NCBI GenBank assembly: GCA_024280855.1 | Contig: JAJRPG010000084.1 | Coordinates: 1-64,000 of the forward strand | Length of the DNA: 64,000 nucleotides | Direction: 5' to 3' | Source of the DNA: Planctomycetota bacterium | GTDB taxonomy: Bacteria > Planctomycetota > Phycisphaerae > UBA1845 | Shown: in pieces, positions 26,203 through 44,000 of the stretch | How positions within the stretch are numbered: the first letter of the stretch is position 1 | Layout of the letters: every line of letters begins with the position of its first letter | Notes under the pieces: model-generated | Told to the model about the DNA's origin: nothing | Databases searched by the model: none | The model's input: only the letters and a program-made list of their open reading frames with translations | Translations under genes and position numbers: made by a program

Positions 26203-26826
26203 TCACATCGGAAACCCAGTCTTCTGGTACTCGGCTAGCCGGTAATAGAGCTTGCGCGCACTCATACCCAATTCGGCTGCAGCCGCTTCCCGGTTGCCTC
26301 CGTTGCGGTCCAAGGCTGCAGTGATGCACTCGTATTCGATCTCGCGCATCGTTTGCGGTGAATCATGCTGGCCCGCGTCCCTGGCTTCATCCGTTATGAT
26401 CGGCGGCATGTCGTCGGTATGATCTTCCGACAACTCGAACCGCATGCGCCAAGCTCGATGGAGTGCCTGCTCTATGTCACCCAGGGATGCAGGTTTCGTC
26501 AGAAACTCCACGACGCCGAGGCGTATCGCTCGCTGTGCGGCCTCAAGGGTTCCAAACCCAGTAAGGATCACCGCAGATGTTGCCGGCCAACGTTCACGCA
26601 CTATTTCAAAGCACCGCAGACCGTCCATGCACGGGAGGTTGAGATCGAGCATGACGATGTCACACGGATCCTGTTCCATCTGCGCGATGGCTTCTTCTGC
26701 GGCACGAACCGCCTTCGCACGGAATCCGCACTCTTGGGCGCTGGACACGAGAACATCACGGAGGCGCGATTCATCCTCCACGATCAGAACGGTCGTCTCT
26801 TCGGCTGGCTTGAGGCATCTGGTCAT
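26203..26826 (-). CDS. Response regulator with Fis-type DNA-binding domain
   Basis: A 207-residue two-component regulator of the ActR/PrrA/RegA architecture: receiver plus Fis-like helix-turn-helix, with no AAA+ domain. The receiver is intact: acidic pair in 'VLIVEDESRLRD', phospho-acceptor Asp61 in 'DIVMLDLNLPCMDGL', Thr in 'VILTGFG' and Lys in 'EFLTKPAS'. The C-terminus 'NREAAAAELGMSARKLYYRL' is the DNA-binding helix pair. Its start overlaps the histidine-kinase stop (ATGA), so the two form a translationally coupled pair. The signal is unknown; RegA-type systems often respond to redox. Confidence 0.92.
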   Translation of the reverse strand: MTRCLKPAEETTVLIVEDESRLRDVLVSSAQECGFRAKAVRAAEEAIAQMEQDPCDIVMLDLNLPCMDGLRCFEIVRERWPATSAVILTGFGTLEAAQRAIRLGVVEFLTKPASLGDIEQALHRAWRMRFELSEDHTDDMPPIITDEARDAGQHDSPQTMREIEYECITAALDRNGGNREAAAAELGMSARKLYYRLAEYQKTGFPM

Positions 26827-28319
26827 GCTTCGTCCTCCTCCGCGGAAAACACTGGGAGTTCGACTTTGAAGCGACTCCCCTGATTGAGGCCATCGCTCTG
26901 GGCCGTGATCCTGCCACCGTGTGATTCAACAATGGCGTGCGTGATTGAAAGGCCCAGCCCGAAACCGCGCCTCTTGGATCCAGTTCGTTGCGTGAAGAAT
27001 GGATCGAATACATGCTCTCGTGTCTCGTGTGTCATTCCGTGGCCGTTGTCCGAGACGATAAGCTCTATGGTGCCGTTGTGCCGCTTACCCTTGAGCTGTA
27101 CTTCGCCCACATCAGGCTCCACGGCTTCCAAGGCGTTGACGGTAAGATTGAGTATAACCTGCCTGAGTTCCGTTTCATTGCCCAAGACATTCGAGCCGGG
27201 AGCGAATTCGACGGTGACTTTTCGATCGCGGTACTGCTTCAACGATCGCAGCATCGTTGCGACATCGTCCACGATCTGATCGAGGGGGACTCGCGTGCGT
27301 TCGGCGTCTCCACCGGAGGACAAGGACAACAGCTTTTCGATGATACCCTTACAACGGAAGGATTCGTCGCGGATGATGCGGAGCGCTTGTTCAGTGGCCT
27401 CTTGTTCGCGTGCATCCGTCGGCTTTCGAATCCGCCGCAGCGTGAGTTCGGCGTGCCCAGAGATGATGCTGAGCGGGTTGTTGATTTCGTGCGCGACGCC
27501 GGCCGCTAAGTAGCCAATGCCTGCGAGGCGCTCAGAACGAACGAGTTCTCGACTCTTTTCACGAACACGGCGTTCCAAATCGTGATAAAGCTCGTCAAGT
27601 TCCGCCGCCATCTGATTGAAGTCTCGGGCGAGCTGCCCAAACTCATCATCATTGGTTTGCGGGAGGCGCTTGTCGAACCGCCCCGATGCCAGCATCCTCA
27701 CCGTGTCACGAAGGCGTCGTATCGGCACTACCACGCTCCGGTATAACGCGATGTTGACCAGCACGGTCGTCAGAATCATAGCACACGAGACGAGGACTAA
27801 CACGATCAACGTTACCTGGAGCGTTCGGCTCGATGCGCGATGCGAAAGAGCTATCGTCTCGTCCATTTCGTTTGCCAGGTGCTTGAGTTGAGCCTGTGCC
27901 GCCTTGAGACCGGCGAGAGCGGCGGCTACCTCCACTTCACCGGTTTGCGTCGTTAGCGAGGCCGCCACTTTGCGTACATTCGACTCCAGCGCTTGTAGAT
28001 ACCTTCCCTCTTCCTCCTCGTGAGGAGCGATATCCCTGTGCTGCTGATCCTGGAAACCAAGGAGATTCCGCAATACGCGTACCGCTTCTAATAGTTCGGC
28101 ATTTGCACCTTCCGGGGTCGCTCCGGCTTCGACCATGCCCCGTGCTGCCATGAGATGTTCGTCAAGGTTCAGGATCATGCGCAGCTCAGCGTACTCGTCG
28201 CCCGCAATCCGCACCGACTTCCGCGCCGCTAGCAAGCCCCATGCGGCGGATACGGCAACGATGACGAGCGCCGTTGTTAGAACACAGGTTTTGAGCGTGA
28301 TCCTCTTCGCAAGGGTCAT
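26823..28319 (-). CDS. Membrane histidine kinase (HAMP, HisKA, HATPase)
   Basis: A 498-residue sensor kinase. The ATG at 28319 has GGAGG five bases upstream; an earlier in-frame start lacks one. The layout is an N-terminal membrane helix (TLKTCVLTTALVIVAVSAAWGLL), a helical periplasmic sensor of about 130 residues, and a second helix (VTLIVLVLVSCAMILTTVLVNIAL). Next come a HAMP domain, HisKA with the phospho-His in 'GYLAAGVAHEINNPLSIISG' (about residue 277), and an ATPase domain with N box 'QVILNLTVNALEAV', 'DNGHGM' and 'GFGLGLSI'. The HEINNPL motif and lack of PAS resemble NtrB/ZraS-type kinases. It pairs with the Fis-type regulator at 26203. Confidence 0.92.
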   Translation of the reverse strand: MTLAKRITLKTCVLTTALVIVAVSAAWGLLAARKSVRIAGDEYAELRMILNLDEHLMAARGMVEAGATPEGANAELLEAVRVLRNLLGFQDQQHRDIAPHEEEEGRYLQALESNVRKVAASLTTQTGEVEVAAALAGLKAAQAQLKHLANEMDETIALSHRASSRTLQVTLIVLVLVSCAMILTTVLVNIALYRSVVVPIRRLRDTVRMLASGRFDKRLPQTNDDEFGQLARDFNQMAAELDELYHDLERRVREKSRELVRSERLAGIGYLAAGVAHEINNPLSIISGHAELTLRRIRKPTDAREQEATEQALRIIRDESFRCKGIIEKLLSLSSGGDAERTRVPLDQIVDDVATMLRSLKQYRDRKVTVEFAPGSNVLGNETELRQVILNLTVNALEAVEPDVGEVQLKGKRHNGTIELIVSDNGHGMTHETREHVFDPFFTQRTGSKRRGFGLGLSITHAIVESHGGRITAQSDGLNQGSRFKVELPVFSAEEDEA

Positions 28320-28517
28320 AGGTGCCTCCGTTGGTTTCGCGCCTGCATCATAACGCACCCGGTCCGATGGAGGTAGTTGACTGCAAAACTTGCAGCTTTG
28401 GTGTGGTGAAACGGTTTTGGTGTAACGTGGGAGCGGCTCCTGAGAACGGCCGCGGCTAGCGGAACTGGGCGAGCTTCGGGTGGACGAGCCGGCGGAGCTA
28501 ATTGGCGGTAACTATAG

Positions 28518-29021
28518 ATGCAAACAATGCGGTTTCTACACACTTCCATTCCGGTTCGAGACCCAAAGCGAGTCGCACGAGCGCTTGCCGAACTCGTCGA
28601 AGGCGCGACGTTTGATTTTCTCCACCCTGGCTGCTATTTCGTGACGTTCGGCGAACCCGGATCGCTGATCGAGCTTTACCGAAAGGAGATAGAACTCCAC
28701 CCTGGTGCGCCCGAAAAACCGTGCGAGATGTTGGACAGCGATTCGCACGCAAGATTCACCGGATCGCACACGGCCATCCAAGTATCCGCCAGCGCCGATC
28801 GTGTGTTGGAGATCGCTCGCGATTTCGGATGGCGTGCCGAAGTCCATCGAAGGCGCGTCTTTCGCGTGATCGAAGTCTGGATCGAAAACGAATACCTACT
28901 CGAAGTGTTTCCGCCCGAATTCGCAGCCGAATACTTGGCAGCATGTAAACTCGTATCCTCCTCCGCGCCGCAAAGCGACGCCAACCAGAGATTGGAACGT
29001 ACCCATGAGACGCAAGAATAA
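28518..29021 (+). CDS. VOC (glyoxalase/dioxygenase-fold)-like protein
   Basis: A 167-residue protein whose pattern of beta strands and helices ('FLHTSIPVRDPKRVARALAELV', 'GCYFVTFGEPGSLIELYRK', 'HTAIQVSASADRVLEIARDFGWRAEV', 'VIEVWIENEYLLEVFPPEF') resembles two beta-alpha-beta-beta-beta units of the vicinal-oxygen-chelate fold. Candidate metal residues are His8, Glu near 'LIELY', His at 'SHTAI' and Glu in 'LLEVF'. The substrate is unknown. The ribosome-binding site is weak. It is probably the first gene of the radical-SAM operon: its end overlaps the 44-codon ORF that overlaps the radical SAM start. Confidence 0.6.
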   Translation: MQTMRFLHTSIPVRDPKRVARALAELVEGATFDFLHPGCYFVTFGEPGSLIELYRKEIELHPGAPEKPCEMLDSDSHARFTGSHTAIQVSASADRVLEIARDFGWRAEVHRRRVFRVIEVWIENEYLLEVFPPEFAAEYLAACKLVSSSAPQSDANQRLERTHETQE

Positions 29022-29139
29022 GACGGCCAGGTCATCTTTTTCCCGACAACATGCACGCGAACAAATTTCGCTGGTCATCGCCTGCCTGCCAAGTCTCGAC
29101 ATGTACGCCGCCCACGATGGGCCGGAGGGTAAAGAATGA
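29005..29139 (+). CDS. 44-residue overlapping small ORF, possible peptide
   Basis: An ATG at 29005 inside the end of the VOC-like gene opens a frame of 44 residues (MRRKNKTARSSFSRQHAREQ, then a hydrophobic 'SLVIACLPSLDMY', ending DGPEGKE). It stops at TGA 29137-29139, overlapping the radical SAM start (ATGATG). It therefore bridges the gap between the two genes with overlaps at both ends. It could be a small peptide, for example a substrate of the radical SAM enzyme, or merely a translational-coupling leader or chance. No homologue is recognised. Confidence 0.3.
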   Translation: MRRKNKTARSSFSRQHAREQISLVIACLPSLDMYAAHDGPEGKE

Positions 29140-31415
29140 TGCACCGCGCATACGAAGACATTTCGCTCACGATGTATCCGCAAGGTCATGCGCGAAGACC
29201 AGAAGCGATGGATGTCCTCGTGCGCTCAGTACTCGACAGTCAGCCTATGCGGGCGCTGCGTTTCGTTTTCGACCGCAAAGGACTAAGCGTTGAACCGCAA
29301 CCGATCGTATGCAAAGACCTCTCCGATTCTCTGGTACGATTGATGTTCCCTGTAACGGGTGGCCCCATCGTCGATGGTGCGGTCGTGTCGGTGGTTTGCC
29401 TGTTTGATTGGGGGAAAGATCAAACACTGTACGCACACCCGATGCACGCTGGTCCCGGCGTCAACCCGCTGGTTCGACATCTCGACGGACCGATGGCCTC
29501 ACCCAAACCCCAGGCTGACGCCGACGGCGATCGCGCCAACCTGCGGATAGCCCAACACAAGCAGGCACTCTGGGATCGATTCGTTGAAGAACTCCCTCTC
29601 TTTGGCGAACAAGAGGCGGGTCGGCGATGGCGCGAAGGCTACTACTGGGCGTTGAAACGTCTCTACTTCTGCTGCGGTTGCAGCCAGTGCAAATGGGGCA
29701 GTCCCTTTTTCGACGGCCCGGATCCATCCTTGCCACGCAAGGCGGTTGTTTCAACATTTTCACATCAAGGCTCGCCGCTCAACACCGAGTACGCTGCAAT
29801 CGTTTCGGACATTCTCTCCAGCGATGAGTGGCGGACCGAAGTAGCTTACGCACAGCGCGGAGGGTTCGGCGTCAACGAGCAGCCCTGTCTGGTCAAGGTT
29901 TTGGACGGCGACTTCATCCAGGTCATTTTTCCAACGAACCTATCTTTGGTGCAGGCCGGAGCACTCGTCGCAGTTGCGTTTACTTATCATGTGCCATCGC
30001 GAAGTGTGGCGATCGCACACTGCCTCTGCGCCGGTCCCGAATCGGAAATACAATTCCTGAAGGGCGATGTAGCTTTTGGCTTGCCGCGTCCGCAACCGGG
30101 AAAGGCCGGTGAAGACGCGAGAGCCACGTACCGTTCGTGGCGACGCAACGCTTGGTCACAATTCTGGTTGAACGAGCTTGAGAACGGGATCGCAGTGGCG
30201 AGCAAAAAGTGGCTGAAGGAATTCTGGAATGCACTGGGGGCGCTGTTCGGTGGCAACGATATTTCCTGCGTAACAGAACACAGGCAACTGCCAACCGCCC
30301 TCGATGAATCACGGTTAGCTGGTGCAGCTCGCGGCGAATCGATACTCCCGTACCACGCGCTTGAGAACACTGGCGGACGGTGCTTTGCCGGGCACGCGAT
30401 GAATCGTCGGCCCAAAGAACTTCGCGCCCTAGCTCTATCTACCCTCATGGTCAACATGGGGCATCGCTGCAATCAGGCTTGCCACCATTGCCATGTCAAT
30501 GCAGGCCCCAATCGAACCGAGGAAATGACTCGAGAGACCGTGGACCTCGTGCTTGACGCGCTGCGTCGCTTCGACATTGAGACGCTTGACATTACTGGCG
30601 GCGCTCCAGAGATGAATCCTCATTTTCGATACCTGGCGCGCGAGGCATCTCGACTGGGCTGTCGAGTTGTTGATCGGTGCAATTTGACGATCTTCTTCGA
30701 GCCGGGTTACGAAGACCTGCCCGAGTTTCTGGCTGAACACGGTATCCAGATCACTGCCTCGCTGCCATCCTACGAAGCGGACATCGCTGATCGTCAACGG
30801 GGAGTAGGAACCTTCGCCAAAAGTATCGCCTCGTTGCAGAAACTCAACGAACTGGGGTATGCCATGCCTGACATGGGGTTGACACTGAACCTAGTGCATA
30901 ACCCTGCCGGGATTGATCTCGGTGCCCCGCAGCACGATTTGGAGCAACATTACAAACGTGAATTATTCAATCGCTTTGGGGTCCGTTTTGACCGGCTTTT
31001 TGCCATGAACAACATGCCCATCAACCGCTTTGAAAAAGACTTGAAACGCGAAGGGCATTGGTCAGTGTATATGGATCGATTGGTTGGCGCGTTCAATCCA
31101 GACACCGTGGACGGCTTGATGTGCCGGCGTACGCTATCGGTGGGGTACGATGGACGTCTTTATGACTGCGATTTCAATCAGGTCATGGACATCCCACTCG
31201 CATCTGGCCTACCCGCTCACATCCGTGATCTTGACGCTTCGCTACTTCACCATAGGGCGATCAACACGGCTGCCCACTGCTTCGGCTGCACGGCCGGGGC
31301 CGGTTCATCATGCAATGGTGCCCTGGTCGCCTTTTCTCGCGATGTGGGAGTAGCCGATAACGGAAACGGACGGAATCTCATGGCACTAACACGCGAGACA
31401 ACACATGACATCTAG
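29136..31415 (+). CDS. Radical SAM enzyme, ArsS/DUF3641-like, with duplicated N-terminal extension
   Basis: A 759-residue protein. The C-terminal about 330 residues match the ArsS (arsenosugar-biosynthesis) radical SAM family: Cys445-x3-Cys449-x2-Cys452 (CNQACHHC), 'LDITGGAPEMNPHFRYLA', 'RCNLTIFFEPGYEDLPEFL', 'NNMPINRF', 'MCRRTLSVGYDGRLYDCDFNQVMDIPL' and a Cys-rich end (HCFGCTAGAGSSCNG). The N-terminal about 400 residues are absent from normal ArsS proteins (about 320 residues). They hold two similar units: 'LSDSLVRLMFPVTGGPIVDGAVVSV' with 'CAGPE/HAGPG'-type strands, each followed by a Trp-rich helix bundle ('WRRNAWSQFWLNEL'). Unit 1 ends with CCGCSQC, a possible metal site. The start has GGAGG upstream. 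It heads an overlapping operon of lipid-type enzymes; no arsM lies nearby, so an arsenic substrate is not assured. Confidence 0.82.
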   Translation: MMHRAYEDISLTMYPQGHARRPEAMDVLVRSVLDSQPMRALRFVFDRKGLSVEPQPIVCKDLSDSLVRLMFPVTGGPIVDGAVVSVVCLFDWGKDQTLYAHPMHAGPGVNPLVRHLDGPMASPKPQADADGDRANLRIAQHKQALWDRFVEELPLFGEQEAGRRWREGYYWALKRLYFCCGCSQCKWGSPFFDGPDPSLPRKAVVSTFSHQGSPLNTEYAAIVSDILSSDEWRTEVAYAQRGGFGVNEQPCLVKVLDGDFIQVIFPTNLSLVQAGALVAVAFTYHVPSRSVAIAHCLCAGPESEIQFLKGDVAFGLPRPQPGKAGEDARATYRSWRRNAWSQFWLNELENGIAVASKKWLKEFWNALGALFGGNDISCVTEHRQLPTALDESRLAGAARGESILPYHALENTGGRCFAGHAMNRRPKELRALALSTLMVNMGHRCNQACHHCHVNAGPNRTEEMTRETVDLVLDALRRFDIETLDITGGAPEMNPHFRYLAREASRLGCRVVDRCNLTIFFEPGYEDLPEFLAEHGIQITASLPSYEADIADRQRGVGTFAKSIASLQKLNELGYAMPDMGLTLNLVHNPAGIDLGAPQHDLEQHYKRELFNRFGVRFDRLFAMNNMPINRFEKDLKREGHWSVYMDRLVGAFNPDTVDGLMCRRTLSVGYDGRLYDCDFNQVMDIPLASGLPAHIRDLDASLLHHRAINTAAHCFGCTAGAGSSCNGALVAFSRDVGVADNGNGRNLMALTRETTHDI

Positions 31416-32943
31416 GCCAATCGAAGTGTTCCTAACAGGGGCGACCGGATTTCTTGGACATTACGTGCTTGCAGAACTGCTCGCGCATCCGCACATCCGC
31501 TGCCGCGTATTGCTTCGGCCTCCGATCTCCAAGAGTTCAGCGCGGCTTGGCCAGCTACTCGCGGAAATTGGCTTCAACCTCCCGGCGCTTATCGCTAAAG
31601 GGCGTGTCCTACTCGTCGAGGGAGAATTGCCGGGCTCAATCAACTCAGAGGATATTAGCGGCGTTGACATGGTGCTGCACGCTGCGGGGAATACGACCTT
31701 CCATGCCAACGGTTCGGGCGAGCCAGCCAAGACAAACATCGATGGCACACGTGCGATATTATCGCTGGCCACTAAGGCGAAAATTCGTCGATTTTCTTTT
31801 GTCAGCACAGCCTATGTGTGCGGCGAGCAAATCGGCCATCAGTCGGAAGTGATCTTCGAGGCTATTCCGCCGATTCGCAATGAGTACGAACGTTCGAAGT
31901 GGGAAGCAGAGCGGCTGGTTTGGGCTTGGGGCGAAGACAACGGAATAGTAACGATATGCAGGCCGTCGATTCTGTTTGGTGACAGCCGGACAGGGCGTGC
32001 CAGCGCCATGAAGGGATTGTATCTTGTTGCCAGAGCCACCGAGATACTTGCTCGCGCCATGGATGGCAATCACAGGGTTGACCGCCATCAGATACCATTC
32101 CGAATTCTTGGGCTCCCCCATGCCACCTGCAATGTTGTACCCGTTGATTGGGCCGCCCGGCAGATCGCCAATATCAGCCTGGAGCCAACTACTGAATCCT
32201 CGGTGCATCACGTCACCAACCCCGACCCGCCCACGCATCAGGAAGTCAAACGGTGGCTGGAGCAATACTTCGACATCGCTGGCGGGCGATTCAGCAATAC
32301 GACGTGGCCGCTTGCGGATGCCAACCATTATGAAGACCTATTTTACTCGCTGGGAAACATCTGCCTTGATTACTTTCGTGACGGTCTGACGTTTGAGTCT
32401 AGGCGTGCGCTGGACACGCACTCGGGACGACGATTGATTGACGGCGCAGCATTTGCTGCGTGTATAAAGTACGCCCAAGCAACCAACTGGTGTCGGGCAC
32501 CTAGCGAAGCCCACGATCTCCAGCCACCTGCCGAAGGTTTCAATCCAACATGGTACTTCGAGAGTTTTTTGCCCGAGGCCGTCCCCCATTCTGTGATTGC
32601 GAAGGTCGAAGAGTTGACCGCAGTCGTACAGTATACGATCACTGGTCGTGTCGGGGGAAGTTGGATCAGCCGTTTTGAGCGCGGCCGGCTAACGGAAACC
32701 CACGCTGCCCCGTCGCCGCTGATACCGGAGTTTGAATATCGCTTGTCGTATGAGGATTTGGATGATGTCGTGTCCTGTCGCAAACCGTTGCAAGATGTGT
32801 TTTTCCACGGCAGCGCTGAAATGTTTGGAGATGTGGAGCGGGCGCTAAAAATGGTCCCCATCATCGGCGAATTCCTCAAAGAATTCCCCGTGATCGATAA
32901 CGAATGTCCAAGAGTGATTAGTCGCAATGGTGTGTCATGTTGA
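31405..32943 (+). CDS. NAD(P)-dependent fatty-acyl/thioester reductase fused to SCP2-like lipid-binding domain
   Basis: A 512-residue extended-SDR protein of the thioester-reductase/male-sterility type. The nucleotide motif TGATGFLG is at 11-18. 'HAAGNTTFH' and 'SFVSTAYVCGE' provide the catalytic Ser/Thr, and Tyr161 and Lys165 (YERSK) complete the YxxxK pair. These enzymes reduce carrier- or CoA-bound acyl groups to aldehyde or alcohol. The last about 115 residues ('VQYTITGRVGGSWISRFERG...LSYEDLDDVVSCRKPLQDVFFHGSAEMFGDVERALKM') look like a sterol-carrier-protein-2 domain that cradles lipids. I do not recall this fusion as common. It overlaps the radical SAM gene by 11 bases and the hydrolase by 7. 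Confidence 0.82.
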   Translation: MTSRPIEVFLTGATGFLGHYVLAELLAHPHIRCRVLLRPPISKSSARLGQLLAEIGFNLPALIAKGRVLLVEGELPGSINSEDISGVDMVLHAAGNTTFHANGSGEPAKTNIDGTRAILSLATKAKIRRFSFVSTAYVCGEQIGHQSEVIFEAIPPIRNEYERSKWEAERLVWAWGEDNGIVTICRPSILFGDSRTGRASAMKGLYLVARATEILARAMDGNHRVDRHQIPFRILGLPHATCNVVPVDWAARQIANISLEPTTESSVHHVTNPDPPTHQEVKRWLEQYFDIAGGRFSNTTWPLADANHYEDLFYSLGNICLDYFRDGLTFESRRALDTHSGRRLIDGAAFAACIKYAQATNWCRAPSEAHDLQPPAEGFNPTWYFESFLPEAVPHSVIAKVEELTAVVQYTITGRVGGSWISRFERGRLTETHAAPSPLIPEFEYRLSYEDLDDVVSCRKPLQDVFFHGSAEMFGDVERALKMVPIIGEFLKEFPVIDNECPRVISRNGVSC

Positions 32944-33656
32944 CCGCAACAGGATTTGTTGAAGAAAACGTGCGCATCCAAGGGTGCGGACGAATGCTGA
33001 CAGGCCTCCTAGCCTATCCCGACGATGGCGCTGATTGCAGTGTGTTGATCGCAGGGCCGCACCCGTTTCTCGGCGGAGATATGCGCAACAACGTCGTGAG
33101 TTCGTTATCGAAAGCGTTGGCGTCACGAGGTGCGGTGACGCTAGCGTTTGACTACGGCGGTGTCGGAACAAGCGAAGGCGGGCCTGCGGATTGGCCTAGT
33201 GTGATGTCGACGTTTTGGACGAAAGGCTCTTTCAATGAGGAACACGATTGGGCGGACGATGCCGGGTCGGCTATCGCGGCACTGTGGCAATGGTGCGATT
33301 TCCCTCCGGTGTTGATTGGGTACAGCTTCGGGTGTTGGACGGTCGTAAAGAATCTGCGAAGATCAGGCGCTAAGGCGATCGTCCTGATTTCCCCCAATCC
33401 CAAGCAGCACCTTTTCGAGGAATTGTCAGAATGCCCGGTGCCGCTACTCATGCTCCATAGCGACAACGACTTCACTTGCGGCTGTTCCGAATTGATGGCG
33501 TGGTATGAGTCGATTCGTGAACCCAAGCGGAGAATCCAGTTGCCTGCCGGTGAGCATTTCTTCCGAGGCCTCGAAACGGAAGTAGCGACGACGGTTCTGG
33601 AGTTTTTGCAACACCATGAGGTGTTGGGACGGGAGCAAGGTGAAAGTATCCACTGA
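32937..33656 (+). CDS. Alpha/beta hydrolase (acyl-thioesterase or acyltransferase type)
   Basis: A 239-residue alpha/beta hydrolase. 'SVLIAGPHPFLGGDMRNNVV' provides the oxyanion region, GYSFG holds nucleophile Ser130, Asp in 'LLMLHSDNDFTC' is the acid, and His in 'PAGEHFFRG' completes the triad. The overall pattern fits dienelactone-hydrolase/YqiA-type serine hydrolases. Between a fatty-acyl reductase and a LuxE/PaaK-like ligase it sits where LuxD (an acyl-ACP thioesterase/transferase) sits in the lux operon, so release or transfer of an acyl group is a reasonable guess. It overlaps both neighbours, showing translational coupling. Confidence 0.85.
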   Translation: MLTATGFVEENVRIQGCGRMLTGLLAYPDDGADCSVLIAGPHPFLGGDMRNNVVSSLSKALASRGAVTLAFDYGGVGTSEGGPADWPSVMSTFWTKGSFNEEHDWADDAGSAIAALWQWCDFPPVLIGYSFGCWTVVKNLRRSGAKAIVLISPNPKQHLFEELSECPVPLLMLHSDNDFTCGCSELMAWYESIREPKRRIQLPAGEHFFRGLETEVATTVLEFLQHHEVLGREQGESIH

Positions 33657-34728
33657 CGATATCGCGATCGAGGCGCGGCTCCGCGACGTTCTTGCGATCC
33701 ACTTCGATCCGGAACAAGGCAGTCCGTACTGGCTTGACCGCGCCAAGGAACTCGGGTTCGATCCGCGCAACGAGATCATGTGCGTCGCTGATCTCGCCCG
33801 GTTTCCCATGATGGATCCGACGGATCTCGCAAAATACGAGCTTGCTGATTTTCTTCCACGCCCGCTATTGGGTCGCAAAGGCGAGTTGATTATCGCACAG
33901 ACCGGAGGCACGCTAGGCCAGCCAGCCTGGACGGCATATATGGAGAACGAATTCCGGGAGGCTTTTGTCGATCCTTTCGTTATAGCTGCCAAGCACATTG
34001 ATTTCCCAATGTGTGGAACCTGGCTTTATGTAGGGCCGTCCGGGCCGCACATCATCCACCGGGCTGCGGACGCCATTGCTCGCACAACGGGTTCGATGAC
34101 TCCGTTCAGCGTCGATTTCGACCCACGATGGGCGAACAAACTGGCGTCTGGTAGCTTTGCTTCCAAGCGATACCTCCAACACATCGTCGATCAAGCCCTT
34201 GCGATACTGAATTCCCAAACGATAACAGTGCTCTTCTCAACACCTGTCGTAATCCGCGCTCTTGCCGACTCAATGCGTTCCAAGCAACGTGAGAACATTT
34301 ACGGCGTTCATTATGGCGGCATGGCCATCGAATCGAGCGAAATGAAGGCCCTCCAAACAGAAGCATTCCCGAACGCGGTCCACCTGTCCGGGTATGGCAA
34401 CACACTATTCGGATGCTGCCTCGAACTGGACATGGCCGTGGGTCGAGAGCTGATCTACTACCCATATGGAGACAGGGTTCTCCTCGGAGTGGTTGATGAA
34501 CAAGGCGAACAAGTGGATCGACCTATGTACAACCGGGCTGGAGCGGAAGGCCCTTTGGTGTTTTCAAGGTTGGATGAGACGGTTCTATTGATAAACGTTC
34601 TTGAAAGAGATTGTGTGAGGCTCTGCGACCCGCCGGCAAATGCTCCATCAGGGTTTGGGCTAATGGGCGTCGGCTCACCAACGCCGCGGGTCGAGCACCG
34701 AGAAGTCGCTTCGGTTTCTCTCTACTAA
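33616..34728 (+). CDS. LuxE/PaaK-like adenylate-forming acyl ligase
   Basis: A 370-residue protein of the phenylacetate-CoA-ligase/LuxE (acyl-protein synthetase) branch of the ANL superfamily. Visible are 'LARFPMMDPTDLAKY' (PaaK-like N-terminus), the phosphate-loop motif 'IIAQTGGTLGQPAWTAY', a hydrophobic pocket region 'VLFSTPVVIRALADSM', and 'VHLSGYGNTLFGCCLE' in place of the usual 'YGxTE'. The C-terminal small domain is short, as in LuxE. It is expected to activate a carboxylic acid as adenylate and load it on a thiol for the upstream reductase. The start is uncertain: ATG 33616, or GTG 33640 with a closer GGGAG. It overlaps the hydrolase gene. Confidence 0.78.
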   Translation: MRCWDGSKVKVSTDDIAIEARLRDVLAIHFDPEQGSPYWLDRAKELGFDPRNEIMCVADLARFPMMDPTDLAKYELADFLPRPLLGRKGELIIAQTGGTLGQPAWTAYMENEFREAFVDPFVIAAKHIDFPMCGTWLYVGPSGPHIIHRAADAIARTTGSMTPFSVDFDPRWANKLASGSFASKRYLQHIVDQALAILNSQTITVLFSTPVVIRALADSMRSKQRENIYGVHYGGMAIESSEMKALQTEAFPNAVHLSGYGNTLFGCCLELDMAVGRELIYYPYGDRVLLGVVDEQGEQVDRPMYNRAGAEGPLVFSRLDETVLLINVLERDCVRLCDPPANAPSGFGLMGVGSPTPRVEHREVASVSLY

Positions 34729-34744
34729 AGGTGAAGTATTACCT

Positions 34745-36271
34745 ATGAAACAACGGACTCGCAAATGGTTACATCGAGTGTCGCTTCTTGTTTGCCTCAT
34801 TGGCTTCTGTTTCGAGAGCGGTTGCGCTCCGAATCGATTCGGACTATCGATCGCGTATCACGCGGAGAAGACTTCGGTAACAAACGCTGCCACGCGTCAC
34901 ACGACAGTCAGTCCGTACTACCGGTTTGACACCGCCCTCCTCAGCGACCTTGATGACGCCCTCGTAGTTGGCGATGTGCCAATACAGCGCGAAAAGGCTC
35001 GCGCGGTTTTGCGCGGCGCCAACGCACTGAGTCAGGTGTCCACCGCGAATGAAATCGAACGTCTACCGTCCTACGCACGCAATAAGTTAGCAAAGATATC
35101 AAGAAGCTCGGCAGACCTCACCGTCCTGCAACATTATTTCTCAAGACTTGCGAACGCAGCGCTCACAAGCGATTTGCGAGATGTGGATCGGCTCACGCCG
35201 TCTGAATTACAAAGTAAGCTGGTAGGCATCCGTAAGGGCGTCGAAGATTTGCCCGACGACCGCGGACGATTGACACGCAAAGTCCTTTATGCGTGGGCTG
35301 CGTCCATGACCGCCAATGGCATCGCACGAGAAGAATCCCATCTTGCCGAGGCATGTCTCGCCAAGGCGGAGAAGAAGTTCGATCGCATCGCGACCTGCCG
35401 CCCGGTCAAATCAGATGGGCTCGCCCTCATTACGCGATACGCTCCGATCATCGGCGTGGAGTGGCCTACAAATCGCCGCCATGACGCCAACTACGACCGG
35501 ATTGGCGAAGTCAAATTGTCCGCGGAGGGCCAGCACATCAAAGTGCAAATCGATTCAACAAAACCGACCGTCTATTCATACGCTACGGTGGCCAAGATCG
35601 GTGGGCGTCGCTTGCGGCAGTTAAACTATGTTTGGTGGTTCTCCGAGCGTCCGGAGATGAGCGAGGATGATCCGGTGGCCGGTCACATTGACGGTTCAAT
35701 GATCAGAATCACGTTGGACGCCAACGACATTCCGATATTCGTTGAATCCTCTTCGAATTGTGGATGCGGTCACGAAGTCTTTGTTTCCAAGCGAATCGAA
35801 GCCGCCGTGCGTCAAGAGTTTGGAGTACCGCTTGCCGGAAAACGTTTTGCTGTTGAGAAGAGTGTTCCCGGAAAGCATGATGTCGTCGTAATCGACACAT
35901 TCGATACGTCGTCTAATTTCGTTCGCCCGATCGTTATTTCTTCTGCGGGTTATCATGAAGTCTTTCACGTCAGCTTCGACGCACCAGCCATACTAAATTC
36001 GCTAGAGATTGCGGAGGATGCCTCGTATCAACTTGTGAGCTATGACACGCTTGATGCACTTCCGCTCAGGGGCGGCATCGCCAGCATGTTCGGTCCGGAC
36101 GGCCTTGTTCATTATGCCGGACGCCCCGAAGGGTTCCTACTTGCGCCGTCGGGCATGCTTAGCGCTGGTCAGCCGCGCAAACGCGGTACTCAGAGAGTCC
36201 GCTGGGATGACTACCTGCACGATGATCCGCATCTTCTAGAAAAGACGCTTCGCATTCCCCCACTAGATTGA
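34745..36271 (+). CDS. Large lipoprotein of unknown function in the lipid operon
   Basis: A 508-residue protein with a lipoprotein signal (LHRVSLLVCLIGFCFESGC). After about residue 30 the sequence is mixed alpha/beta with an alpha-helical first half ('LSDLDDALVVGDVPIQREKARAVLRGANALSQV'). A conserved-looking central part 'RLRQLNYVWWFSERPEMSEDDPVAGHIDGSMIRITL...SSNCGCGHEVFVS' carries a CGC motif and several Trp and His. I do not recognise a family. It starts 16 bases after the ligase gene and ends 9 bases before the glycosyltransferase, so it is in the same operon. It may be the periplasmic or outer-membrane acceptor for the product. Confidence 0.78.
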   Translation: MKQRTRKWLHRVSLLVCLIGFCFESGCAPNRFGLSIAYHAEKTSVTNAATRHTTVSPYYRFDTALLSDLDDALVVGDVPIQREKARAVLRGANALSQVSTANEIERLPSYARNKLAKISRSSADLTVLQHYFSRLANAALTSDLRDVDRLTPSELQSKLVGIRKGVEDLPDDRGRLTRKVLYAWAASMTANGIAREESHLAEACLAKAEKKFDRIATCRPVKSDGLALITRYAPIIGVEWPTNRRHDANYDRIGEVKLSAEGQHIKVQIDSTKPTVYSYATVAKIGGRRLRQLNYVWWFSERPEMSEDDPVAGHIDGSMIRITLDANDIPIFVESSSNCGCGHEVFVSKRIEAAVRQEFGVPLAGKRFAVEKSVPGKHDVVVIDTFDTSSNFVRPIVISSAGYHEVFHVSFDAPAILNSLEIAEDASYQLVSYDTLDALPLRGGIASMFGPDGLVHYAGRPEGFLLAPSGMLSAGQPRKRGTQRVRWDDYLHDDPHLLEKTLRIPPLD

Positions 36272-36280
36272 GAACGTTAC

Positions 36281-37507
36281 ATGGCCGTCGAAACCATATT
36301 ACTGCTCGCCGGGTGGGGCGCTATCTGTAACGTGTGGCTGGGGCTTATCGTCGCCCAACGTAGGGCCCGCCGCGACGGGCTGTTTCTCGAAGTGGCTGCG
36401 GACAGCTCGACAGAATTTCCGAAGCACACTGACACGCCGACCGTCAGCGTGGTGATCGCCGCGAGAAATGAATCCGAGGGTTTGGCCAACTGCCTGCAAG
36501 ATGTACTAGCGCAGGACTATCCGAAACTGTCGGTCCTCGTGATCGATGATCGCAGCGAGGACGCCACCTACCAGATCGCAGAGGAGTTTGCTCGATCCGA
36601 CGCCCGCGTCCAGGCTAAACATATTGACCATCTGCCGTCTAAGTGGATGGGCAAGTCGCATGCCCTCTGGCAGGGGACCCGAGACGTTCGCGCTGATTGG
36701 TTGCTCTTTACGGACGTCGATTGCAAGCTGAAGCCACACGCGGTTGGACGTGCGATCGAAGAAGCCCGCACACGAAACGTGAGGTTCTTGACGCTTTGGC
36801 CACAACAGACCGGCGGCGGATTTTGGGAACACACCACGATCCCGCTGTGTGGCGGCATCATCGCCCTCTGGTTCGGCTCCCAGCGCGTAAACGATCCCCG
36901 TTGCGCCATGGCATTTGCCAACGGGCAATTCCTGTTGATCGAACGCGCATCCTACGAACGAATCGGTGGACACCAGGCTGTGCGCTCGGCCATCATTGAA
37001 GACATCCCGCTGGCCGAGCACGCCAAGAAATCGGGAGTGGTGTGCTGGGTCGCCTCCGGGCGTGATCTTGTTTCGGTACGCATGTACGACAACTACCGTG
37101 CGATCGTAAATGGTTGGGCAAGAATCTATGTCGGTGCGTTGCGCAGCGGAACCAAGATAGCGCTCAGCATGCTCTGGCTGATCGTCGGCTCGCTTCTTCC
37201 CTATGTCGCCGCGGTGTGGCTGGCGACGGCGTCCTACTCGGCTTGGAACACGGGCGCGAATATCAGCGTGGACATTATCTGTTTCGCCGCTCTTTGTGCG
37301 AGCCATTTGATTTTAATGATGGTAGCCAGCTACCGGTTTTGGGGCATGGGCGGGTGTCGGCGAATAGACTTAATCTGGTACCCGCTTTCCGTGTGTGTCG
37401 TGGTGCGCATCCTGGCACAATCCTGGTGGTGGCTGACGATCAGACGCAGCATTCCGTGGCGTGACACCCGCTACACTATTGACCGTCGGGGAAAAATCGT
37501 TGGATGA
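36281..37507 (+). CDS. Membrane family-2 glycosyltransferase (HpnB-like)
   Basis: A 408-residue GT-A glycosyltransferase. It has an N-terminal membrane helix (ILLLAGWGAICNVWLGLIV). The catalytic domain holds 'VSVVIAARNESEGLANCLQDVLAQDYPKLSVLVIDDRSED', the DxD motif in 'LLFTDVDCKLKP', 'GGHQAVRSAIIEDIPLAEHAKKSG' and a C-terminal aromatic region. Three to four membrane helices follow. The layout matches the hopene-associated glycosyltransferase HpnB and related polyprenyl or lipid glycosyltransferases. It probably adds a sugar to the lipid made by the preceding enzymes, but the acceptor cannot be told. Its stop overlaps the exporter's start region. Confidence 0.87.
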   Translation: MAVETILLLAGWGAICNVWLGLIVAQRRARRDGLFLEVAADSSTEFPKHTDTPTVSVVIAARNESEGLANCLQDVLAQDYPKLSVLVIDDRSEDATYQIAEEFARSDARVQAKHIDHLPSKWMGKSHALWQGTRDVRADWLLFTDVDCKLKPHAVGRAIEEARTRNVRFLTLWPQQTGGGFWEHTTIPLCGGIIALWFGSQRVNDPRCAMAFANGQFLLIERASYERIGGHQAVRSAIIEDIPLAEHAKKSGVVCWVASGRDLVSVRMYDNYRAIVNGWARIYVGALRSGTKIALSMLWLIVGSLLPYVAAVWLATASYSAWNTGANISVDIICFAALCASHLILMMVASYRFWGMGGCRRIDLIWYPLSVCVVVRILAQSWWWLTIRRSIPWRDTRYTIDRRGKIVG

Positions 37508-39443
37508 CCTCACGCCAAATCGATCACCACAGAAGCCTCCGCGCAAGAATCTAGGAAGAACGATTGCTTGGATTCTATGGCTAGTTGTGGCGGCGCTGAG
37601 CGGGATGAGCTTGCAGCACTACCAGATTGACAATGATCTAGGAAGCTGGGTTCCCGACCTTGAGGCTGTTGGCGCGATTAAGTCATATACAATTGTTGGC
37701 TTTGAGCGAAACGCTTTCAGCGAAACTGAGGTCGCCGCTTCACTTCGGAAGCAACCATCCGTGAGCTTTTGCCTCGATTCGGCCTACGTTGAAAGGATTG
37801 GTCGTTCGCAAGGAATAGCCCCCGAAAACTTCGTCGTCAGCGAAGACGGGACTTACGCAGGAATCTTCGTATTTCGAAACGCCAATTATGACGACGAGAC
37901 CTTCGTTCGCCAGATTCACGTAGCGCTCGCTGAGTATGATCGAAGTCTGGATCGGTTTGCGTTAGCGGGCCCCGCAGTTTTTCATGTGTCGCTCAACGCC
38001 TTCAGCCAGCTTCGACTACCCATCATCATGCTGCTAATCAATCTCATGGGCGGTGTCTGGCTATGGTCGATCACGGGGAATCCGAAGGCGGCTGTAACGG
38101 GCGTCGCGGCGATTGTTCTTAGCCAGGCCGTCTTGTTGGGCATCGTATCCTGGCAGCGCATTCCTGTTGACATGTCCTTGTCAATGATTCCCCCGCTCAT
38201 CATGGCATTGGGGTATTCGTACGCGGCGCATCGAACGCTTCGTCGCGGTGTCACCGGTACGTTGCTATTGTGTTGCGGAACAACGGCGGCAGGAATTGCT
38301 AGTGCTGGCATTAGCGATCTGGTGCCTCTCCGAATGTTCGCCCTTTACGGAACTCTAGGCATGGCGTTGGTCTGGCTCGCCGTCGTAACGCTGATGCCCG
38401 CGCCTGCCCCTCGCGCTCGGTCGAGCCGTCCTCCTGCCAGATGGTTTGAACCACTCCTACGCTGCAACCTCGCGATTGTCCACCGGCATGGCAATGTCGT
38501 CGTTCTCGTTTGTGTCTTCATCACGATCGCATCAGTCGTTGCGATACCGTACTTGCATTTTGAATCGAATCCACTGGCCTTCTTTCCATCTGATGCACGC
38601 ATCACACGCGATTTCTCCACCATCGACGCGCGCCTGACAGGAACGTTGCCTTTTCAAGTCACAGTGACCGGATTGGCCGACCCTACGAAAATGCTGCAAA
38701 ACACGGTAGGCGTGAGGAAAATTCTCAATGTCTCGACCATCGTCGGGGGTGACCACGCAACATACTGGGGTCTTGCTCAAGGCGACGCGCTACCCGATCT
38801 GGTTTCCGCACAGGAAGAATGGCATGCTTGGGCAAATACAAATCATGTCCAATTGCAATGGCGTGGCATCGCTGCGCAGATCACAGCTACGGGAAGAATC
38901 CTCCGGCTTGCCACGATAGTCACGCTGCCGGCCATGGCGATAATTGCGGCTATATCCATAGGGTGCTTAACGTGGAGCTTGAGGATGGCTTTTGTCGCTG
39001 CTTGGGTTAATCTCCTGCCAGTATGCTGCCTGATCTTAATCGCAGCGATAGCCCAAGTATCCATTGGATTGCCATCATTCATGATTGGCGCCATTGCTAT
39101 CGGCATGGCCATCGACGACACCGTTCACTTGGCCAGTTCCGTGCAACAACGACGCGGAGTAGCTCGCGGGCTGATGCGCTGTTGGCGACCATGTGTCGGG
39201 AGCACGTTTGTCTCTGCCTCGTGTTTGGCCCTTTTTGCTTTGAGTCCATTCGGTCCTACCCGGCAATTCGGCATTCTGCTCGGATCTATCTCTCTTTGCG
39301 CACTAACAGTAGATATGCTGCTTTTTTGTGTTCTCTGCGACAACAAAGGGACACGGAAGCCCCGTACGAGGGGGGGCTCCCCCAGGTTATGCGGACAACT
39401 ACCTAGCAAACTGACCCTGACGGCGGATCAGGATTCGGGGTGA
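37461..39443 (+). CDS. RND-superfamily lipid exporter (MMPL/HpnN/Patched-like), compact form
   Basis: A 660-residue RND transporter with 12 predicted membrane helices in the 1+5, 1+5 pattern. Helix 1 is 'IAWILWLVVAALSGMSL', helices 2-6 lie between about 175 and 320, helix 7 is 'VVVLVCVFITIASVVAIPY', and helices 8-12 end near 'ALTVDMLLFCVLC'. 'IGMAIDDTVHL' is the helix-10 signature of the MMPL/SSD group. The extracytoplasmic loops are only about 130 residues each, smaller than in MMPL or HpnN. Such proteins move hydrophobic molecules such as hopanoids. The start is uncertain: GTG 37461, or TTG 37500 overlapping the glycosyltransferase stop. It is the last gene of the operon, twelve bases before an IS701-type element. 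Confidence 0.82.
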   Translation: MTPATLLTVGEKSLDDLTPNRSPQKPPRKNLGRTIAWILWLVVAALSGMSLQHYQIDNDLGSWVPDLEAVGAIKSYTIVGFERNAFSETEVAASLRKQPSVSFCLDSAYVERIGRSQGIAPENFVVSEDGTYAGIFVFRNANYDDETFVRQIHVALAEYDRSLDRFALAGPAVFHVSLNAFSQLRLPIIMLLINLMGGVWLWSITGNPKAAVTGVAAIVLSQAVLLGIVSWQRIPVDMSLSMIPPLIMALGYSYAAHRTLRRGVTGTLLLCCGTTAAGIASAGISDLVPLRMFALYGTLGMALVWLAVVTLMPAPAPRARSSRPPARWFEPLLRCNLAIVHRHGNVVVLVCVFITIASVVAIPYLHFESNPLAFFPSDARITRDFSTIDARLTGTLPFQVTVTGLADPTKMLQNTVGVRKILNVSTIVGGDHATYWGLAQGDALPDLVSAQEEWHAWANTNHVQLQWRGIAAQITATGRILRLATIVTLPAMAIIAAISIGCLTWSLRMAFVAAWVNLLPVCCLILIAAIAQVSIGLPSFMIGAIAIGMAIDDTVHLASSVQQRRGVARGLMRCWRPCVGSTFVSASCLALFALSPFGPTRQFGILLGSISLCALTVDMLLFCVLCDNKGTRKPRTRGGSPRLCGQLPSKLTLTADQDSG

Positions 39444-39454: not shown

Positions 39455-40937
39455 TAAATGTAATCGTATTAGTATGACAGCGCAGGATTTGCTCAAGCGT
39501 TTTTGATTGTGCTATCGATGTTACTTCTGGTTGAATAATCAGGAGGGCCGTTTATGAATGCCGATCAGTTAGGATCGCTGCAGCTGGCGCTGGCTGAGCT
39601 GCTGAATTAGTTTCGCCCGTACTTCAAACGTGAGCCGACTTTCAAACATCTGCAACGATATCTTGCAGGACTCATGGCTGACCTGAAACGCAAGAGTATT
39701 GAGCCAATCGCGTTAGCCGCCGAGGTGCCGGTCCGAACTTTGCAGGAGTTCCTTTCGCATTTCGTCTGGGATGATAAACGTATAGACGATCATCTACAGC
39801 GACTGGTCGTGGACAAACACGGCTGCGATAACGGCATCGGCGTACTCGATGCGTCCAGTCATACCAAGCAAGGGCACAAGACGCCCGGCGTGCAACGACA
39901 GTGGTCAGGGGAACATGGCAAGGTCGATAATCGCGTGGTTGGCCAGCACCTGCTGTATACGAACAACAAACCCGACAACCCCTTCAGTTGTATGCTCGCC
40001 AGTGATCTTTATGTGCCAAAATCATGGCACGAAGATCGTGAGCGATGCCTAGAGGCGTCAATCCCAGATGAAGTCGAGTATCTTCCCAAGTGGCAGATCA
40101 GGCTCAATCAGGTCGCTCGTGCCATCGGTAACGGCGTGCGATTTTCCTGGGTGACGTTCGATGAAGACTACGGCAAAGTTCCTATGTTCTGGACCTGCCT
40201 CGATGCCCTCGGCCAGCGAGGGATCGGAGAAGTGCCCCGCAATTTTCGTTGCTGGCCCACGCGGCCGAGTTGCCATTCCTTTCAAAGCGCTCATGCGTCT
40301 AAGCGGGTAGACAACGTCTGTCGATACAGCCCGGTGTTCACGAAGATGGCATGGCGAACCGTGAAGATCAAGGAAACCACGCGTGGCGATGCCAAATGGG
40401 AAATCAAGGCGGCCCGCGTTCACCTGCTGGACACCTCGTGCGGCGTTTCGCAACCGTCGGATCGACAGTACTGGCTCATCGTGGCTCATAATCCGGCGAC
40501 GGGTGAGTATAAGTATTTCGTCAGCAATGCGGCGGCGAGTGTCAGCGTCCTGGCCCTGTTGCGTGCCGCCTTTGCGCGGTGGCACGTGGAAAACTGGTTT
40601 GAGCGAGCCAAGCAGGAGGCTGGCTTTGGGGCTTTCGAAGTTCGCACCTACAAGAGCCTGTTGCGGCACTGGCTTTGCAGTCGAATCGTGATGTACTTTT
40701 TAGCCGCTCAAACCGAGCGACTTCGGGGGGGGGAATCAAAAGATCACGCTGGAGCAGGTCGCGGATGCGGTGAATACATTATCGTCGAAGATATGGAAAA
40801 CGTTCCCGCATTCGTGGAAACAACTGATCCAGCGATGTGCGTACGATCAACAGCGTAACGACGCATCATACAAGAGCCGAAGGCAAAAGGCAGAACGGGC
40901 GAATACAAGTTAGCGCAGTCATATTAGTTTACATTTA
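39455..40937 (+). mobile_element. Decayed IS701-type insertion sequence
   Basis: A transposase reading frame is bounded by imperfect inverted ends: left 'AAATGTAATCGTATTAGTAT' continuing GACAGCGC (about 39457-39483), and right 'GCGCAGTCATATTAGTTTAC' continuing ATTT (about 40913-40937). The ends pair mainly through AAATGTAA and TATGAC(A/T)GCGC. The exact boundaries and any target duplication cannot be fixed by eye. The transposase carries two disabling lesions. Confidence 0.7.
39554..40913 (+). pseudogene. IS701-family transposase, nonsense and frameshift mutated
   Basis: Translation from ATG 39554 (AGGAGG upstream) gives MNADQLGSLQLALAELLN, then TAG at 39608-39610, then continues in the same frame as a DDE transposase of the IS701/IS4 group: 'GVLDASSHTKQGHKTPGVQRQWSG', 'VTFDEDYGKVPMFWTCLD' and 'WHVENWFERAKQEAGFGAFEVRTY' (the E-containing motif). 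At a run of nine G (40725-40733) the frame breaks. Removing one G restores a normal C-terminus ending in ERANTS at 40913. The enzyme should be dead unless suppressed. The remaining open part is 39674-40858. Confidence 0.85.
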
Positions 40938-41014: not shown

Positions 41015-44000
41015 ATGTGTAGACGATTCCCAAGAGATGTATCGGTTACGATATTCCTAATATGCATGTCATTGACCTCGCCATCCCACTCGGGTGCAGC
41101 GACAAACACTGCTGCACTAAATATCCAAAACTCTCGTGTGACTGGCAACGCAACCTTTGTAACCAGTTCGAATGGTAATTCAATTCCACTTGATTCTAAC
41201 CTACAAAGAATCCAACCTACGCCTCGCGACTTCCTTAAGCAGTACGGGCATGTATTTGGTATTTCTAATCTCGATGCTGAATTAATAGAGTCAGCCGCGA
41301 GTACCGATTCGATTGGTGCCAAGCATACGACATTTCTACAACTTCATCATGGCGTATCTGTGTTTTCCGGTATACTTAAGACTCATCAAAACGCTCAAGG
41401 TGACTTTATTGCTGCTAACGGCGATTTCTATCCGATCTCCCAGAAACTGAACGTAGTTGCATCACTCACAAGTATAAAAGCTATAGTTCTCGCAAAAGCA
41501 CTACTCGACACTGAACAACCTACTGTAGAAACATCAGAACTTGTTATTGTGGATCCCGGATGGTACGGCGATCCGGCGATTGGTGCTCATCTTGCTTATT
41601 ATATTGTGCTAGCTGACAGGTCTGTGCCACTGCGGCAGGCTTTCTTTGTTGACGCGCACTCTGGACTAATACTCGACCAATGGAACCTACTTCATAATGC
41701 ACTTGATCGACAGGTGACAGATGATGTTCTGGGAGCTCTCGTTCGCAGCGAAGGTGATCCGCAAACTGGCGACTTCGATTCCGATGTAGTTTATGACTAT
41801 ATGGGCGATATGTATGGCTATCTATTCCGTGCACTTGGGCGAGATGGGATTGACGATAATGGCGGAACGTTGAATGCTCTAGTCCACTGGCAATCAGCAA
41901 TCTGCCCTAATGCTGTAGGCGACGCTTCTGGTATTTCCATCTGCACTGGAGTAACAGGCGACGACACAATTGCCCATGAAATGGGGCATGGCCTGACTCA
42001 AGTGACTGCAAATCTGATTTACCAAAACCAATCAGGTCAACTTAACGAATCGTATTCGGATGTTTGGGGTGAACTGATCGATTTGCTCAATGGAGATACA
42101 ATTAACCCAGGGCCACCCGCCGGTACCACTTGGCCGAAGGACGCAAACTATCTTTCATCCGGTCAAGATACTCCAAACTTTTTGCGTACAATTTGTAGTG
42201 TTGATCCTATGTATCTCGATGGTGTGAGATGGCTACATGGTGAGGACGACATTGCATTTGGCGGTGCGATTCGTGATATGTGGCAACCTACTTGTATGGG
42301 GGATCCTGACCGGGCCAACCATCCGTTCCAAACATGTAGTCCTAATGACAATGGTGGTGTCCATAGCGGAAGCGGTGTCCCCAATCATGCTTTCGCGATG
42401 CTTAGTGATGGCAAGACATTCAACGGGCAGGTTGTTAATGGGATTGGCGCAATAAAGGCTGGAGCGGTTTGGTATAGAGCGCTAACAGTTTATCTGACGG
42501 TAGCATCTGATTTTACGGATGCTTATTTTGCGTTAAATCAAGCTGCGGCAGATTTAGTTGGCACAAATATTTTTGATCCCAGAGATGGATCCATTCTTGG
42601 TACGTTTACACTAGCTGATGCCGCAGAAGTCGATAAAGCATTGCAAGCAGTGGAAATGAATACCGAAGGTGCCTGTGGTGCGTCTGTACCGGTGCTTGAT
42701 TCTACTCCCCCAGTTCGCTGCTCACTCCAGGTGCCGATTTTTGAAGATGATTTCGAGGGGGGTATTAACGGCTGGACAGTTTCAAATACAGGCCCCAATG
42801 GTCCGCCAACGCCATACGATTGGATACAACTATCTTCTGGATTGCCATTTGGCCATAGCGGAACAGTTTGGTTTGCTGATGATCCTAATTTAGGTGATTG
42901 TATTACGATCGATGAATCAGCAGTTCACTCGTTATTTAGCCCTGTGATAGTACTACCTGCAGAAATACCTTTCCCAGTGGTCGAGTTTACTCATTATGTA
43001 GAGACTGAAATTGGGTTTGATGGTGGTAACATTAAAATCAGTATCAACAGCAATGCTTGGTCGGTGATTCCCGATGAAGTATTCCAATTCAATCCTTATA
43101 ACGCAACGATTAATACTTTTGCAGCTGATGACAATACTAACCCGCTTGAGGGCCAGCGTGGTTGGACAGGCGCTGGAGGTAGATGGGGCACCTCGTTGAT
43201 TGAATTAACTAGCTTAGTGGCTCCCGGTGATTCAGTTCAATTTCGATTTGATTTTGGCAAAGATGGTTGCACAGGCTTCAAAGGTTGGTATGTAGACGAT
43301 TTCAAGCTGTATACATGTCCACTCGATTGTAACTCAAATGGGATACCAGATGACGTGGATCTATCGATCATGACCAGTCTTGACTGTAACGTCAATAATA
43401 TTCCAGACGAATGCGATTTATCAAATGGTACATCCTTCGATTGTAACGAGAATACAATTCCGGACGATTGTGAAATCGCAGATATGCCGAGTCTCGATGG
43501 TGATGGGAATAGCGTGCTGGACGAATGTGAATTCGTACCATGCTTAATGAATGAATTAATTGCACATGATGCCGACTCTGAAGACCGATTTGGTGTAATA
43601 GGAATTGATGATCCATACCTAGCTGTTGGTGCTCCTGATGAAGATAGTATAACATCAGATTCTGGATCAGTTTATATGTACCGTAAAGTCGGTCTAGGCT
43701 GGCAGTTTCAATCCAAACTGGTTGCCTCCGACGGGCGATTCAGAGACGGATTTGGATCGTCAATTGCCATATCAAGCGATACCCTTGTCGTAGGTGCGAG
43801 GGCACATGATGTCGATACAAGCAATGACGCAGGTGCTGTATATGTCTTCCAGAGACAAGAGAATTCTTGGATACAAACACAGAAGCTAATTGCAAGTGAT
43901 GTCTCCGCATTCGCAAACTTCGGAAGTGCGTTATCACTCAAAGGAGATTATCTGGCTGTAGGAGCTCCTTCCTCGTCGTCTGGAACTGATGTTGGAGCAG

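Follow-up and report, generated by a model that had tools for sequence, protein, structure and literature searches.

An apparently undescribed planctomycete gene cluster with an EhpF-like ligase, a reductase carrying an SCP2-like domain and a fused ArsS-family radical SAM protein

The reductase, hydrolase, ligase and lipoprotein genes of the operon described here are a conserved unit: of 150 related planctomycete genomes about 20 have it, in many cases next to histidine kinase and response regulator genes that form a divergent pair. The operon is apparently an undescribed planctomycete gene cluster. Judged from its protein families, its product is most likely a reduced, glycosylated hydrophobic compound, possibly bearing arsenic. 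The window analysed is a stretch of 64,000 nucleotides, part of contig 109 of a 4.56-Mb planctomycete genome in 112 contigs. An initial annotation had placed an eight-gene operon at 28518-39443, and eight open reading frames do lie there, all on the + strand (Table 1). The distances between neighbours along the eight frames are 114, -11, -7, -41, 16, 9 and -47 bp. The description of the genes as overlapping or lying within about 16 bases of each other thus holds for seven of the eight, and fails at the first gap of 114 bp. The activities first named were broadly right for the ArsS-family radical SAM protein, the NAD_binding_4 reductase, the alpha/beta hydrolase and the GT2 enzyme closest to HpnB/CruG. 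The RND call is based on some ten hydrophobic segments together with an AIDDT motif, and on a match to HpnN that is very weak. The proposal of a single pathway is supported in the sense of a conserved, apparently co-transcribed unit, probably acting on a hydrophobic carboxylate-derived compound, and no cluster of like make-up was found in open-licence papers, in line with the remark that no operon with this set was described.

Table 1. Features of the operon and of its promoter region, with window positions
Feature	Position	Strand	Basis
Response regulator with Fis-type HTH, operon partner	26203..26826	-	receiver and C-terminal HTH read from sequence; orthologue core-linked in ~10 other loci
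Sensor histidine kinase, divergent from operon	26823..28358	-	Pfam; hydropathy; core-linked in 11 other loci, 34-80% identity
Palindrome TGCAA-N3-TTGCA, probable regulator binding site	28382..28394	.	promoter conservation across loci
VOC/glyoxalase-like protein	28518..29021	+	sequence motifs; 71-86% identity in other carrier loci
c-type cytochrome lipoprotein gene, 3' remnant	29023..29135	+	22/37 identical to L038 cytochrome C-terminus, E 8e-10
Fusion: two tandem ~160-aa undescribed domains, then ArsS radical SAM domain	29136..31415	+	TIGR04167, 422 bits; alignments; tree
Thioester/acyl reductase (R-domain-like SDR) with C-terminal SCP2-like domain	31405..32943	+	NAD_binding_4; profile matches
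Alpha/beta hydrolase	32937..33656	+	Pfam; conservation in 21 sequences
EhpF-like adenylate-forming ligase	33616..34728	+	EhpF, 4e-28 by sequence, 2e-40 by profile
Lipoprotein, undescribed family; C-terminal part weakly NLP-fold-like	34745..36271	+	SGC lipobox; no Pfam family
Membrane GT2 glycosyltransferase, HpnB/CruG-like	36281..37507	+	family models, hydropathy
RND/MMPL-like membrane protein, accessory	37461..39443	+	AIDDT motif and ~ten hydrophobic segments; HpnN 16 bits

Other features of the window can be noted. An IS701-family transposase gene (39674-40858) begins 230 bp past the RND gene, and a 2191-aa protein with a thermolysin-type (M4) peptidase and FG-GAP repeats is encoded at 41015-47590 in a GC-poorer stretch. 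Two sodium/proton antiporter genes of different families lie side by side at 19223-22259. A MoaA-like radical SAM protein with a Mob_synth_C domain (59430-60392) is unrelated to the operon.

Does the gene set stay together in other genomes? The ligase was searched in 150 relatives, and matches with E below 1e-80 were taken as true orthologues. Besides the source genome, 20 genomes have such an orthologue; a widespread paralogue, about 31-35% identical, was set apart. Around the 20 orthologues the reductase, hydrolase and ligase are nearly always found; 16 of these loci also have the lipoprotein, 11 the kinase and 10 the regulator. These counts are lower bounds, as several contigs end within the cluster. 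Gene order and linkage are kept in other families of the order while the flanking genes mostly differ, therefore chance does not explain the recurrence of the set, and the conserved neighbourhood that the initial annotation had proposed to look for across planctomycetes is there. The named carriers of the lipoprotein are all Planctomycetota metagenome assemblies, several of them labelled Phycisphaerae or UBA1845, and all named carriers are uncultured or metagenome-assembled genomes. No plasmid homologue of the operon was found by megablast. As for the paralogue, which is widespread in relatives, one copy about 31% identical adjoins an aldehyde dehydrogenase family gene at L058:8968-11495 (G000:C58), an arrangement as in EhpF-EhpG; the same cluster has a PaaK-like ligase, PQQ-repeat proteins, an Fe-ADH, a HemN-like radical SAM protein and a halogenase/reductase-like flavoprotein.

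The clusters come in two variants. The window-type variant, found mainly in its own family, has the double domain fused to ArsS and genes for the VOC-like protein, the GT2 enzyme and, in some loci, the RND protein. In the more distant variant there is no radical SAM domain, and a cytochrome c is present. At several loci of the latter, the ligase is directly followed by an MqnD-like protein (VitK2_biosynth, PF02621), and a U32 protein is encoded close by in L050 and L052, an aminotransferase in L054. Since neither the ArsS domain nor the RND gene occurs in the more distant clusters, they do not belong to the core. It is speculation that an MqnE-type adenosylation links the two variants; a motif search found no radical SAM partner in the MqnD-bearing clusters.

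Which chemistry do the core enzymes point to? The ligase is predicted to be of the EhpF type, not LuxE, and to adenylate a carboxylic acid. EhpF is its one clear characterised relative in the PDB, and the match covers residues 25-333. The reductase matches NAD_binding_4 in Pfam and MxaA by profile (1.1e-35). Its last 120 or so residues are SCP2-like, with an SCP2/thiolase PDB profile match at 4.9e-10; the Pfam SCP2 model scores over cut-off in five of six reductase homologues and just below it in the window copy (20.0 vs 21.3). SCP2 domains bind lipids, and this domain is the best evidence that the substrate is hydrophobic. On these matches the reductase is probably a thioester reductase of the R-domain type that carries a lipid-binding domain like SCP2, rather than a LuxC. 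In the hydrolase, GYSFG and the D and H of the likely triad are conserved in 21 sequences. The trio of reductase, hydrolase and ligase recalls luxCDE in outline, and the initial annotation had drawn this parallel to the production of fatty aldehydes. However, no Pfam model of LuxC, LuxD or LuxE was matched and the best matches are to other families. With an MxaA/CAR-type R domain plus SCP2 in the reductase and the EhpF match in the ligase, homology to lux was rejected, and lux-like fatty aldehyde production is very unlikely.

Another explanation is that the core turns a naphthoate- or phenazine-like carboxylate into an aldehyde or alcohol for export, and that the cytochrome c and the kinase are redox partners of this metabolite. 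EhpF, the closest characterised ligase, belongs to a phenazine pathway, and its operon also encodes EhpR, a binding protein of the VOC fold, and the exporter EhpJ (PMC3175449). The MqnD-like, U32 and aminotransferase genes of the distant clusters, and the cytochrome c lipoprotein in many clusters, would fit as well. Nevertheless, the SCP2-like domain and the lipid-type GT2 enzyme point to a bulkier hydrophobic substrate, and EhpG, annotated as an aldehyde dehydrogenase family protein (PMC11278526), is unlike the operon reductase. Furthermore, the MqnD-like gene is absent from the window-type variant. An aromatic redox metabolite is thus a rather unlikely product, though EhpF itself serving a pathway for an aromatic acid does count against the hydrophobic compound that we prefer.

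The remaining operon proteins are less close to known families. The first has no Pfam match; from its motifs, namely H8, E52, H84 and E130, which we take to be placed as in GloA, we infer a VOC-like protein. A role as an ArsI-like C-As lyase was considered and rejected, the sequence being without a vicinal cysteine pair. The lipoprotein matched no Pfam family and is an undescribed family of its own. Its AF2 model has pLDDT 80.5, and the C-terminal part aligns to the NLP fold by VIA-align (Z 9.4, 163 residues, rmsd 3.9, the top seven rows all NLP), while Foldseek gave nothing significant and no Pfam match supports it. A stand-alone lipoprotein of about 278 aa at L006 (G000:C67), akin to this C-terminal part, adjoins a QueE-like radical SAM gene, and short paralogues like it are widespread in the family. 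The glycosyltransferase is closest to HpnB and CruG and stays well below both cut-offs (HpnB, 158 of 379 bits), as it does for TIGR04283 (52 bits against 182). In the RND-like protein the AIDDT motif is at residue 552 and hydropathy gives about ten hydrophobic segments; no family model scored over cut-off. Its gene is found in three other loci and even G002, of the same genus, is without it, so it is accessory. Could the operon be a hopanoid modification cluster, given the HpnB and HpnN parallels drawn in the initial annotation? The GT2 enzyme is indeed closest to HpnB and there is a weak HpnN match, but both scores are far below cut-off (for HpnN, 16 of 752 bits), and squalene-hopene cyclase is found in none of 60 genomes, the source genome included. 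This refutes canonical hopanoids, and the chance of a hopanoid modification cluster is close to nil.

The kinase has two TM segments and HAMP, HisKA and HATPase_c domains (Pfam, hydropathy). Between it and the operon lies the palindrome TGCAA-N3-TTGCA, which is probably the binding site of the regulator, as its conservation suggests. The exact palindrome is found in the corresponding promoter of L039, L042 (twice), L044, L048, L053, L054, L057 and L114; in 312 kb of related loci it occurs 9 times, always at the promoter, against 0.15 expected by first-order resampling. L047 has an exact copy just upstream of the operon start, and L050, L051 and L055 have copies with one mismatch. The palindrome is absent from L038, L040, L043 and L045, all of which are without a linked kinase. 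In the whole genome there are 15 copies against 2 of the reversed pattern, but nearly all of these 15 sites lie inside genes and so give no support for a wider regulon. What fills the 114-bp gap behind the VOC-like gene? In L038 and L114 the VOC-like and radical SAM genes have an intact gene for a c-type cytochrome lipoprotein between them, and the gap encodes the last 37 or so residues of such a cytochrome, with 59-63% identity to L038 (the E value in Table 1 is from blastp against 8 cytochromes). As relatives have the gene intact and the window has a remnant, the operon has lost a redox component that its relatives kept.

The initial annotation was right to call the radical SAM protein ArsS-like. 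Residues 430-730 score 422-425 bits to TIGR04167, above the cut-off of 300, and the CX3CX2C cluster and the C-terminal cysteines are present and invariant in the fused clade. By score and motifs the gene would be a true ArsS. The first 370 or so residues are two copies of a domain of about 160 aa, with an invariant CxxCxxC in the first copy. No Pfam family matched this double domain, and it was found in none of 391 other genomes of the phylum, outside the close relatives; by sequence it appears to be an undescribed domain family. A known fold was looked for and rejected: the model is weak (pLDDT 65.5), with only cystatin/NTF2-like sub-folds at Z under 7. In G065, G017 and G104, single or double copies of the N-domain lie near the core without ArsS. 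This indicates that the N-domain belongs with the core and that the ArsS fusion is an addition in one lineage. In a tree of 39 ArsS domains the 13 fused ones all lie to one side of a branch supported at 99/97. Two stand-alone clades are apart from them: one has several ArsM-adjacent members, and in the other the three loci examined had no ArsM. Over 151 genomes, and with shared ancestry ignored, the core is present in 16 of the 17 genomes that have the N-domain (p 2e-16) and in 12 of the 13 that have a fused ArsS (p 2e-11), while stand-alone ArsS has no association with the core (p = 0.41). A swap of the ArsS half was also dropped, as this half is 67-82% identical to its counterparts in relatives.

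There is a further question of concern, whether the operon handles arsenic. ArsS adenosylates arsenic in arsenosugar biosynthesis according to Cheng et al. 2021, as cited in PMC12159101. In an arsenolipid pathway the fused ArsS would make 5'-deoxy-5'-dimethylarsinoyl-adenosine from the ArsM product, and the other operon genes would build or attach the lipid and export it. The ArsS domain is far over the family cut-off with all motifs present, and the fused gene is the only ArsS in the source genome. This genome also has, on contig 46, an ArsM-like enzyme that shares 62-64% identity with those encoded next to stand-alone ArsS in G011 and G027, and a TIGR04283 arsenosugar glycosyltransferase (250 bits) on contig 107. 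What is more, G035, which has only the fused form, keeps the neighbours of the G022 ArsS locus (transporter, DUF547-like, chorismate-mutase-like and glycosyltransferase genes) without the ArsS. On the other hand, neither the window stretch nor the linked loci in relatives hold an ArsM-like gene, while one is present at the stand-alone ArsS loci of G011, G027, G057 and G102. The tree keeps the fused clade apart from the ArsM-linked one, and five genomes hold both fused and stand-alone ArsS. In addition, ArsM-like and TIGR04283 genes occur with no ArsS at all in G001, a genome of the same genus, and G003 and G015 have only the fused form and no TIGR04283. We therefore think an arsenolipid pathway of this kind unlikely, and it is similarly doubtful that the operon is a dedicated arsenolipid assembly line, in which the fused ArsS would supply an arsenic-bearing adenosine for a reduced, glycosylated and exported lipid. 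A linked arsenosugar cluster, which the initial annotation had named as a refutation of its own reading, was rejected, as neither ArsM nor a TIGR04283 glycosyltransferase is at the operon and the TIGR04283 gene of the genome is on another contig.

Two observations on arsenic-related genes elsewhere can be added. The ArsM-like gene at L109:8314-11785 (G000:C46) stands beside genes that by eye look like EgtD and EgtB of the ergothioneine type. In L149 (G035:C24), compared with L118 (G022:C23), the ArsS between the transporter and the DUF547-like gene is absent, while these two genes and the chorismate-mutase-like and TIGR04283 genes are conserved.

What, then, does the operon do? We give a little less than an even chance to the explanation that it builds and exports a hydrophobic carboxylate-derived metabolite, with a modification of the 5'-deoxyadenosyl type in this variant. 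Each catalytic step, the order of steps and the product are what we infer, as follows. A membrane signal would activate the divergent kinase/regulator pair, and the regulator would bind TGCAA-N3-TTGCA and control both promoters. The EhpF-like ligase would adenylate a carboxylic acid, and the R-domain-like reductase, its chain held by the SCP2-like domain, would convert the activated acid to an aldehyde or alcohol. The hydrolase may release or proofread acyl intermediates. At the membrane the GT2 enzyme would glycosylate the product, whose handling or export may be served by the lipoprotein and the RND-like protein. In this variant the ArsS-type domain, docked to the two copies of the new domain, would add a group derived from 5'-deoxyadenosyl, as in the type of reaction reported for ArsS. 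Two further points count against this explanation: the operon has no enzyme to supply the substrate (PKS, fatty acid or terpene synthase), and the more distant clusters do without the ArsS domain and the RND gene.

The operon thus defines an apparently undescribed cluster that has a regulator and a probable operator of its own, and it brings to light a new domain family joined to ArsS as well as an undescribed family of lipoproteins. Should the arsenic reading be true, the operon would give a route to arsenolipids, whose biosynthetic genes, to our knowledge, remain largely unknown. If arsenic plays no part, a third clade of ArsS with ties to a lipid-type pathway would still mean a wider range of targets for ArsS-type enzymes.

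How does the operon compare with known systems? With luxCDE it shares the order of activities, namely activation, acyl handling and reduction, but none of its three proteins matched Lux families. With HpnB/HpnN it shares the general type of GT2 and RND-like protein, but the scores are far below cut-off and the genome is without hopene cyclase. The N-terminal fold and motifs of the reductase are like those of MxaA and the CAR R domain, and it differs from these terminal thioester reductase domains in standing alone with a C-terminal SCP2-like domain. The radical SAM protein has the core, CX3CX2C, the C-terminal HCFGC...SSC motif and an above-cut-off score in common with ArsS (TIGR04167). Unlike the ArsS of arsenosugar biosynthesis, it is fused to a double new domain, forms its own clade and has no ArsM neighbour, and the fused clade has changes of its own such as AMNNMP for TITNMP and SLPS for SLPYY/SLPCY. 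The EhpF/EhpG operon for D-alanylgriseoluteic acid in Enterobacter agglomerans differs in its phenazine genes, absent here, and in having an aldehyde dehydrogenase family protein, EhpG, where the present operon has an R-domain-like SDR with SCP2. Yet in both operons an EhpF-type ligase stands beside a known or predicted carboxyl-reducing enzyme, together with a VOC-like protein and a known or likely exporter.
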